53,210 bases of DNA from a virus, in IMG/VR virus record IMGVR_UViG_3300034061_003829, positions 1 through 53,210 of that record, one strand, 5' to 3'. This document shows positions 3,294 to 26,065 of this stretch, piece after piece. A model generated the notes under the pieces. That model searched no databases. It was not told where the DNA came from and worked only from the letters and a program-made list of their open reading frames with translations. The first letter of the stretch is position 1; the number at the start of each line of letters is the position of its first letter. The translations under genes and the position numbers were made by a program.

Positions 3294-3478
3294 TTTGGAT
3301 TGGATATATATTATTAGTATTAATAAATGTTTTTGTAGCATTTTTAATAAAGATGTCGAGAAAGACATCATTCTGGGGTAGAATTGTATTATTATTACCA
3401 CCATTAGCGATTTGTTATGGGATAGCTTTCCTATTATTAACTTTATTCTATTTTATTAAATATTATTTAAAGGATTAA
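3290..3478 (+). CDS. Small inner-membrane protein, two TM segments
   Basis: A 62-residue protein with two predicted transmembrane segments: residues about 2-20 (WIGYILLVLINVFVAFLI) and about 32-55 (IVLLLPPLAICYGIAFLLLT), joined by a short basic loop (KMSRKTSFWGR). The basic loop suggests both ends face the periplasm. It starts inside the stop region of the preceding gene (ATGA-type overlap). Small membrane proteins in phage operons can be exclusion or lysis accessories; nothing here allows a choice. Confidence 0.6.
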   Translation: MIWIGYILLVLINVFVAFLIKMSRKTSFWGRIVLLLPPLAICYGIAFLLLTLFYFIKYYLKD

Positions 3479-24604: not shown

Positions 24605-24964
24605 ATGTATCTATTAAAAAATTTAGACAGATTTCAAAAATCTTTTAATCATTTATTTTTAACAGGTTTTTCTGATGAGATTGGGGGTAGTTTAATTAAA
24701 ACAAATGTGATTGAGAATGATGAATCATACGATATTGAGTTCGTTGTTCCTGGTTTTAAGAGAGAAGAATTATCAGTAACTATTGAGGGTAAAAACTTGG
24801 TGGTTGAGGGTAAAAAGGAAGGTAAAGAAATTAAATATAATAAGAGTATTTATTTCCCTAATGGTGTAAAAACGATAACCGCTAAATTAGAAAATGGTAT
24901 TTTAACGGTATCAATACCAAAAGAAAAAACAAAAAAAGATAAAATTGTTGTTGATATTAAATAA
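24605..24964 (+). CDS. Small heat-shock protein, Hsp20/alpha-crystallin
   Basis: A 119-residue protein. Residues about 30-115 form the alpha-crystallin domain: IENDESYDIEFVVPGFKREE, LSVTIEGKNLVVEGKK, IYFPNGVKTITAKLENG and GILTVSIPKEK, the last being the conserved (A/G)-x-L signature region. The N-terminal 28 residues are short and hydrophobic. Such proteins hold unfolding proteins as oligomers without ATP. A tmRNA gene follows 27 nt after the stop, with only a late-type box between them, so two protein-quality-control genes are adjacent. Confidence 0.9.
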   Translation: MYLLKNLDRFQKSFNHLFLTGFSDEIGGSLIKTNVIENDESYDIEFVVPGFKREELSVTIEGKNLVVEGKKEGKEIKYNKSIYFPNGVKTITAKLENGILTVSIPKEKTKKDKIVVDIK

Positions 24965-24969
24965 AATAA

Positions 24970-24977
24970 TATTTATC
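24970..24977 (+). promoter_or_regulatory. Late-type box upstream of tmRNA
   Basis: TATTTATC, a one-mismatch late box, 14 nt before the mature 5' end of the tmRNA. A start a few bases downstream would give a short 5' precursor. Confidence 0.45.
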
Positions 24978-24991
24978 TTTGAATAAAGAAT

Positions 24992-25360
24992 GGGCAATTA
25001 CTGGTTTTGACCTGTAATGGTTGGATATCTTAAACAAGCAAGACCTACTTTAAGTCTTTAAAAACTGAGGTAAAAAATCAACTGGCAACGGTTACAACTC
25101 TGAGGACATGATGTCCTTACCAACTTCACTTATGAAGAGCTTCAAAACTCAAGAAGCTGAACTTGAGTTAGCTTAAGTGAACTTGGCTTAAAGCCAAACA
25201 CAGCAAACCCTTTTGTTAGAGTAGTCAATAACTATCACACATTTTTCCGATTGGTGTTAAAATAAGAGGGATATTTGGTTGTTAGAAAATAACCTAAGCT
25301 TGTAAATAATTTAGGTTATTACAAATTATGGGAACGGAGGTTCGACCCCTCCATTGTCCA
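24992..25360 (+). ncRNA. ssrA: Transfer-messenger RNA (tmRNA)
   Basis: A one-piece tmRNA of about 369 nt. The 5' GGGCAAT pairs with ATTGTCC (25353-25359) to form a seven-base acceptor stem whose third pair is G-U, the alanine identity signal. The 5' part has the conserved TGGTTTTGAC. The 3' part has a T arm, GGAGG-TTCGACC-CCTCC, then discriminator A; CCA is not encoded. The best tag frame resumes at GGC (25084) and runs 30 codons to TAA (25174-25176), starting GNGYNSED and ending QEAELELA. That is longer than common tags (about 10 residues) and ends in LA rather than AA. The tag frame is inferred; the two other frames stop after a few codons without a hydrophobic end. Confidence 0.93.
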
Positions 25361-25423
25361 CGTTAGTTTATCCATTCTATCAAAATGGATTGGTGGAGTG
25401 ATACGAATATGGTCACCTCGAAG
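25361..25423 (+). other. Structured 3' trailer of tmRNA
   Basis: Between tmRNA and its terminator is a 63-nt stretch with a hairpin ATCCATT (25370-25376) / AATGGAT (25384-25390) and a possible GGTG/CACC pairing. It has no tRNA cloverleaf and no frame. It is probably removed during 3' processing. Confidence 0.4.
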
Positions 25424-25453
25424 CCCGACAGAAATGTTGGGTTTTCTTTTTTA
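25424..25453 (+). terminator. Terminator after tmRNA
   Basis: CCCGACA-gaaa-TGTTGGG (one G-T pair) followed by TTTTCTTTTTT. It overlaps by a few bases the end of the convergent minus-strand gene. Confidence 0.8.
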
Positions 25454-26065
25454 TAGGTATCCTGAAACTAAATAAGATAATTTTTCAATTTCATCCATTT
25501 GTTCATCGGTTAATTTCATCTTATTCTTAATAAAAGATACTCTCACAAAACCGAATATAGAACCTTCAATATTTTCAATTACGAATCCGTAATCATTTTT
25601 AACTCCTTTGGTATATAAATAATTTTTCCAAGTTGTAGGATTTTTAGTGTCATTAGTATCTATACTATATCTTTTTTCATCAAAGAATGGCATAAAATGA
25701 TCTGAAAAAGGTGTAAGTAACACATCTTTAAACTCCATATTTTCAATTGATATCCCTGAAGATACAACTTCATAAATCATACTACCTTTAGTAAACTCTA
25801 CTTTTTGTCCTTTTTTATTGAAGAAAACACCTCCATTATGAAGAACTGTGATGGAAACTCTATCTGAATTAGTTATTTCTAATATTTGTTGTAACTTACC
25901 TACAATCTGTTTTGATTTGGTAATATTGCGTTTAACTCTTTCGATTTTATCAAGGTTTTTCTTCTTGTCCATTAGTATTTTGACAAAGTATCCAATAGCA
26001 CCACTAATTATCCCTAATAGTGACACAATAACTGGTGTGGGTATGTATAATCCAAAAAATATCAT
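25451..26065 (-). CDS. Membrane-anchored GAF-like protein
   Basis: A 204-residue protein. Residues about 4-30 (FGLYIPTPVIVSLLGIISGAIGYFV) form one transmembrane segment, followed by a basic helix (KKKNLDKIERVKRNITKSKQ) that probably faces the cytoplasm. Residues about 55-200 resemble a GAF/PAS-like sensor fold: ILEITNSDRVSITVLHNGG, NYLYTKGVKNDYGFVIENI, FGFVRVSFIKNK and a final helix. There is no kinase or cyclase output domain. Similar short proteins occur in large phages and plasmids; the role is unknown, perhaps membrane signalling. It is transcribed away from the next structural operon from its own divergent late-type box. Confidence 0.55.
   Translation of the reverse strand: MIFFGLYIPTPVIVSLLGIISGAIGYFVKILMDKKKNLDKIERVKRNITKSKQIVGKLQQILEITNSDRVSITVLHNGGVFFNKKGQKVEFTKGSMIYEVVSSGISIENMEFKDVLLTPFSDHFMPFFDEKRYSIDTNDTKNPTTWKNYLYTKGVKNDYGFVIENIEGSIFGFVRVSFIKNKMKLTDEQMDEIEKLSYLVSGYL

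Follow-up and report, generated by a model that had tools for sequence, protein, structure and literature searches.

A phage tmRNA with a long tag and a conserved inner core in a T4-like phage and its relatives

The window, by which we mean the whole stretch of 53,210 bases analyzed here (IMG/VR virus record IMGVR_UViG_3300034061_003829), belongs by gene content to a T4-like phage and encodes a Gp23 capsid protein and S77 prohead protease, a tail sheath and a tail fibre. The features at and around its tmRNA gene are as follows.

24605-24964, plus strand: Hsp20 gene (PF00011, 2.8e-15), directly 5' of the tmRNA
24974-24981, plus strand: TATCTTTG, a -7-like promoter element, 10 bases 5' of the tmRNA start
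24992-25360, plus strand: tmRNA (ssrA) gene, GGGCAAU...AUUGUCC-A, from RF00023 and acceptor/T-stem covariation
25084-25176, plus strand: tag frame, 30 codons GNGYNSEDMMSLPTSLMKSFKTQEAELELA and the stop codon TAA (25174-25176), from the RF00023 alignment, the A at -4 and the relatives
25102-25118, plus strand: hairpin GAGGACA-UGA-UGUCCUU within the tag frame, minimum free energy -7.7 kcal/mol
25102-25131, plus strand: tag core EDMMSLPTSL, an instance of the motif ED[MIV]MS[IL]PTS[LI], from an alignment of 41 distinct tags by their cores
25125-25181, plus strand: predicted helix 25125-25132/25174-25181, enclosing the stop codon at the position of tmRNA helix 5
within 25125-25181, plus strand: inner hairpin 25146-25153/25162-25169, kept in six of six sequences
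25420-25455, plus strand: hairpin with a T run, resembling an intrinsic terminator, 3' of the tmRNA

A first-pass annotation had identified a complete tmRNA from the acceptor stem, the T arm and the 5' core, with a G-U third acceptor pair and a gene end at 25360, and all of this is borne out. The Rfam covariance model RF00023 finds a full-length tmRNA at 24992-25363, scoring 55.6 bits where the gathering threshold is 47. The acceptor stem is of the alanine type, and its third pair is G-U in each of the six sequences of the window group; A25360 serves as the discriminator base, and CCA is not encoded. Two-sided changes at neighboring acceptor and T-stem pairs among the six sequences provide the covariation. 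The margin over the threshold is modest, since the model fits the central part of the RNA poorly; alignment is good at both ends, in the resume region and in the T arm. Stems are predicted in the central part, where the pseudoknots PK1-PK4 would be expected. Note that ARAGORN, which is a detection tool and not a biological criterion, returned no tmRNA gene in the window. The folding of the whole tmRNA is more favorable than that of shuffled sequences (z -3.28), and in the outer helix around the stop codon both strands are altered in the relative L010 with pairing kept, as read by eye from the sequences.

Upstream of the tmRNA, the element TATCTTTG fits the Bacteroidota -7 consensus, TAnnTTTG; the motif is complete in L098 and L099 as well, and ATCTTTG is visible in L100, L101 and L102. 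In two further loci, L116 and L110, the tmRNA genes are directly preceded by GTTCTTTAACA, which resembles a boxA antitermination element. The Hsp20 gene and the tmRNA of the window possibly form a proteostasis cluster: a 119-residue open reading frame resembling Hsp20 by eye adjoins the tmRNA in L087, and in some close relatives of the window a different reading frame takes the place of the Hsp20 gene.

For the start of the tag a covariance-model search had been proposed beforehand, and RF00023 puts the resume codon at GGC 25084-25086, aligned to the consensus resume codon GCA. An A is present four bases 5' of this codon, the position reported as the main determinant of the frame in E. coli (PMC2481249). 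The frame thus opened ends in QEAELELA and is about three times as long as usual, the commonest tmRNA tag length being given as 10 amino acids (PMC11915505). The alignment of the resume codon, the A at -4 and the relatives all agree with the 30-codon reading from GGC that had been made from the sequence at the outset. A short normal tag in the +1 or +2 frame was rejected: these frames yield ATVTTLRT (8 residues) and QRLQL (5 residues), which lack a degron-like end and differ in the relatives, so that neither is a conserved short tag. A chance open frame is ruled out by the conservation of the tag.

This conservation is evident among the closest relatives. A search with the tail sheath retrieved 79 loci, many of them short fragments, and RF00023, run over all 79 records, exceeded its cut-off in seven: five close relatives that carry this tmRNA, and two more distant records whose tag is a different one. 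The 30-residue tag is kept in all five close relatives, three being identical in protein and two at 87%, and the three identical ones differ from the window tag by synonymous changes alone. Tags of this group end in ELELA or ELEFA, the final AA missing. RF00023 found no tmRNA in the close sheath relatives L006, L007, L009 and L011, whose contigs of 4 to 7 kb may end before it.

In addition to the window and a 735-kb phage, profile and pattern searches identified 61 IMG/VR contigs with tags of 26-35 residues that contain the core ED[MIV]MS[IL]PTS[LI], a group that we call family A; the count is made up of 51 core-pattern matches, nine relaxed-pattern matches and the contig of L010. A profile of the close-relative tags retrieved 16 IMG/VR loci with tag identities down to 50%. 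The core pattern retrieved 51 stretches, and for each of them a long tag is read either in the locus itself or in a second locus of that contig. Leaving three core codons (x-M-S) free, with I, P, T, S, L/I and T still imposed, added nine tags, one of them cut by the end of the locus; all nine read ED[IM]MSIPTS with M and S invariant, and seven more matches of this pattern were discarded as ordinary protein frames without the core. RF00023 was applied to part of the family A contigs and exceeded its cut-off in 35 of 39 records (38 from IMG/VR and the 735-kb phage). Of the four others, one scored 46.6 bits, two reached 40.2 and 32.6 bits once the filters were relaxed, and the 735-kb phage gave 21.1 bits. 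The model was also run on two of the nine added tags, with 51.4 bits and, for the one cut by the locus end, 40.2 bits. In the 735-kb record, LR756501, the tag reads GDYKMNAEDMMSIPTSLTGKVATESFVEDLVLA.

The 41 distinct family A tags measure 27-35 residues, and one of the nine later tags has 26. At -4 relative to the resume codon 41 of 41 have an A, with the starts assigned by eye and partly from the resume context including this very A; in L134, an in-frame stop codon just upstream supports the late start of the AED-type tags. In the core, E, D, M, S and T are present in 41 of 41 tags; P, the second S and the L/I position are each kept in 40, and a T follows in 34, several of these positions having been imposed by the search patterns. 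The window tag belongs to the family by its core EDMMSLPTSL within 30 residues and by the in-frame hairpin described below, and it has M after the core where those 34 tags have T. A hydrophobic residue followed by AA forms the C-terminus of 27 of the 41. Elsewhere in the collected loci a relaxed core motif gave five matches, all of them one stop-interrupted stretch. A generic tmRNA 5' pattern gave 12 matches, eight of them tmRNA-like by eye with tags of about 10 to 38 residues and the core in none, so that phages have several types of tag, with family A as one of them.

Of the family A records, 21 of 44 encode Gp23 capsid protein, as do four of six records of a second family, B, introduced below; none of 14 cellular controls was positive, and 24 of the 25 positive family A and B records are over the cut-off. 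The marker phrog_2 was set aside, as it was positive in 11 of the 14 controls. A host origin of the tag was considered and rejected after searches of 84,980 prokaryote genomes, which covered contigs of 3 kb or more. Here the window-group profile matched 75 stretches, none of which was confirmed, and the exact core pattern, a type of search that can miss diverged tags, matched twice in Domibacillus, with no such tag and no T arm nearby; both matches look like chance. A tblastn search of 50,697 phage records with four tags led to just two uncultured records of 735,411 bases, with E values of 0.7 to 7, which we accepted because a tmRNA surrounds the match; the window tag itself gave no match in these records.

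Codon differences among the phages show coding selection on the tag. Synonymous and nonsynonymous codon differences in the core number 2029:787 in frame, as opposed to 255:3039 and 110:3091 in the two other frames. As the search patterns bias this figure, the comparison was repeated on SLTR, which lies outside the core pattern, and yielded 508:515 in frame versus 199:1168 and 67:1327 out of frame. For the tag tail the numbers are 884:2265 versus 170:3212 and 247:3153. Outside core and tail the signal is weak, with 50:200 in the leader versus 38:241 and 25:230.

The codons of the core also form an RNA hairpin. Synonymous choices are linked across it, GAG GAT occurring with AGT ATC, GAA GAC with TCT and GAG GAC with TCC, and in L156 the combination of GAG GAT with TCC still pairs with one wobble. 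The closest relatives of the window combine GAG GAC with AGC CTC and form a different, weaker hairpin (-3.7 versus -7.7 kcal/mol). Over 19 unique cores the folding energy averages -4.69 kcal/mol. Column-wise shuffling of the codons gives -2.65 (sd 0.32), and random synonymous codons give -2.04 (sd 0.31); none of 1000 randomizations reached the observed mean under either null, although, with the core sequences being related, the figures for the hairpin are not strict probabilities. In the eight distinct TCN-type cores 40 of 40 cells pair, and one pair is split between AU and GC, with four cores each. Their covariation score was reached by 8 of 500 shuffles, whereas two-sided pair changes (389/500) and further pair types (493/500) were not above the shuffles. 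From the hairpin and its linked synonymous codons, both the peptide and the RNA of the core seem to be constrained. An internal start codon, suggested by a Shine-Dalgarno-like GAGG before AUG in some members, was rejected, as the GAAGAC members lack it.

The two distant sheath relatives, L088 and L091, carry 25-residue tags that start with DNDFIVSENFL, and a pattern search extended this family B to 27 contigs (L230-L256, with L255 and L256 being the contigs of L091 and L088), with tags of 25-26 residues starting in the same way, 17 of them distinct. RF00023 was run on two of these contigs. As evidenced by PF00574, ClpP is encoded in 25 of the 27 records, the two without it being 4.7-kb fragments, and tblastn places clpP on the same strand and 5' of the tag in 24 of the 27 loci, at a distance of 214-639 nt in 20 and of about 1.9 kb in four; note that the contigs are in part near-identical and the 24 loci not independent cases. 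ClpP was found in none of 16 tail-sheath relatives without a tmRNA, defined as having no RF00023 match at E 0.01 (L037 among them gave 5.6 bits). It was present in five of 50 family A records, which are fragments, and is thus not a general partner of the family A tag, although in one case, L103, clpP ends 113 nt before it. Neither ClpP nor Lon was found in the window and its five close relatives, all of them fragments. SmpB was found in one of 42 records other than that of the window, the five close relatives being negative: the 735-kb phage (LR756501.1 199506-199931, L195) encodes it, with 179.7 bits, in addition to its family A tmRNA. The start of the family B tag also contains a short palindrome, whose mean folding over the family stands at 3/1000; for a single sequence, however, 20% of its random synonymous recodings already attain the stability of this family mean, and we regard this hairpin as no more than suggestive.

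Charging of a tmRNA, rescue of ribosomes and tagging with the tag translated in full are established tmRNA biology. We consider it reasonably probable that the phages possess a working tmRNA whose bipartite tag, with a docking core and a degron-type end, delivers tagged chains to proteolysis. In such a pathway the phage tmRNA, including a presumably active copy in the window, would be charged with alanine, use the SmpB of the host and rescue stalled ribosomes during infection, adding the long bipartite tag to stalled chains. The ELxxAA-like C-terminal end could serve as a degron-type signal for an unfoldase such as ClpX and its presumed protease, and the core as a putative docking site for an adaptor, an unfoldase domain or a phage factor, whose binding would steer the tagged chains to proteolysis or set its speed. 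The hairpin in the core probably compacts the long stretch of message between the resume codon and helix 5. The conservation of an inner core far from the tail suggests recognition by a partner, and the clpP neighbor in family B indicates proteolysis as the fate of the tag; for the window tag itself, this fate is suggested by family resemblance. A tentative extension, to which we give appreciably less credence, is a tag-and-destroy pathway of the phages' own, apart from host SsrA-ClpXP, in which an adaptor or unfoldase chosen by the phage would read the core, some phages would contribute the upstream ClpP, and the core would double as the hairpin.

The linked synonymous sites of the hairpin raise the question of whether the tag is long for the sake of RNA structure, with the peptide core as a by-product of the hairpin and the last residues alone needed for proteolysis. 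The palindrome in family B adds weakly to this view, which we nevertheless hold to be unlikely, as two registers of the hairpin, with AGY or TCN serine codons, encode the same peptide, and TS[LI], located past the end of the hairpin, is preserved through synonymous changes in its codons. That the tag might shield proteins from host proteases or mark them for another fate, as the first-pass annotation had proposed, would be in line with the ends ELELA or ELEFA of the window group in place of LAA. The hydrophobic-AA, degron-like ends of the 27 family A tags and the clpP gene 5' of the tmRNA in family B speak against protease avoidance, so that we favor degradation, perhaps by a modified route, and judge a protective or otherwise different fate improbable. 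Given the ends of the window group, an altered susceptibility of its tags to host ClpXP is possible. Least probable is a role of the RNA mainly as a decoy or sensor that titrates SmpB or reports stalling, with the tag of minor importance. It has a precedent in mycobacteriophage DS6A, where a form consisting of the tRNA-like domain only is described and such a molecule is reported to inhibit the tmRNA of the host (PMC4131195, PMC11915505), but the strong coding selection on the core of the frame is not expected for a decoy.

In the E. coli SsrA tag an inner site for the adaptor SspB is combined with a C-terminal ClpX signal, which makes it the model for the proposed bipartite phage tag, although the phage core motif is a different one. 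With standard tmRNA the window gene shares the 5' and 3' tRNA-like domain, the resume determinant and a tag frame with a hydrophobic end, and it differs in its 30-codon tag, the conserved inner core, the in-frame hairpin and its location in a phage. The SsrA tag of Mesoplasma florum is similarly long, with 27 residues, and is described as read by a dedicated protease, Mf-Lon, for which regions of the tag are crucial in recognition (PMC9097571). It is unrelated in sequence to the phage tag, and a phage-encoded Lon, found in none of 43 phage records, was discarded as a candidate.

Complete tmRNAs on phages, as in the window, have been counted over phage genomes including Melnitz (PMC9004378) and listed (PMC4131195), and huge phages with both tmRNA and SmpB, as in the 735-kb phage, are reported in PMC7162821. 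Among the matches listed, mainly from non-subscription literature, none described long conserved phage tags, their core motif and hairpin, or a clpP gene next to the tmRNA. Family A is apparently an undescribed, conserved family of long tags common to many large phages, pointing to a version of ribosome-rescue quality control that the phages operate themselves. While phage tmRNAs are already known, why phages carry them is unsettled; a core-bearing tag that extends from T4-like contigs to a 735-kb phage, together with the pairing of clpP and tmRNA in family B, makes their purpose testable and raises the direct questions of which protease reads the tag and whether it is the phage's own. The tag may also provide a new degradation signal for laboratory use.

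Two further observations concern other phage tmRNA genes in the collection. A match to a group I intron lies in the 3' part of the tmRNA of the 735-kb phage, and such matches are located at the 3' part of the genes in L109 (1610-1838) and L129 (2747-2978) and, truncated by the end of the locus and scoring under the gathering threshold, in L222 (1-132). In L199, from position 3448 onward, a tmRNA-like gene may encode a tag of a different type with 38 residues, DKSLVSKLAAEAVANCNSDSRIYKTGTVVETEAFELVA.
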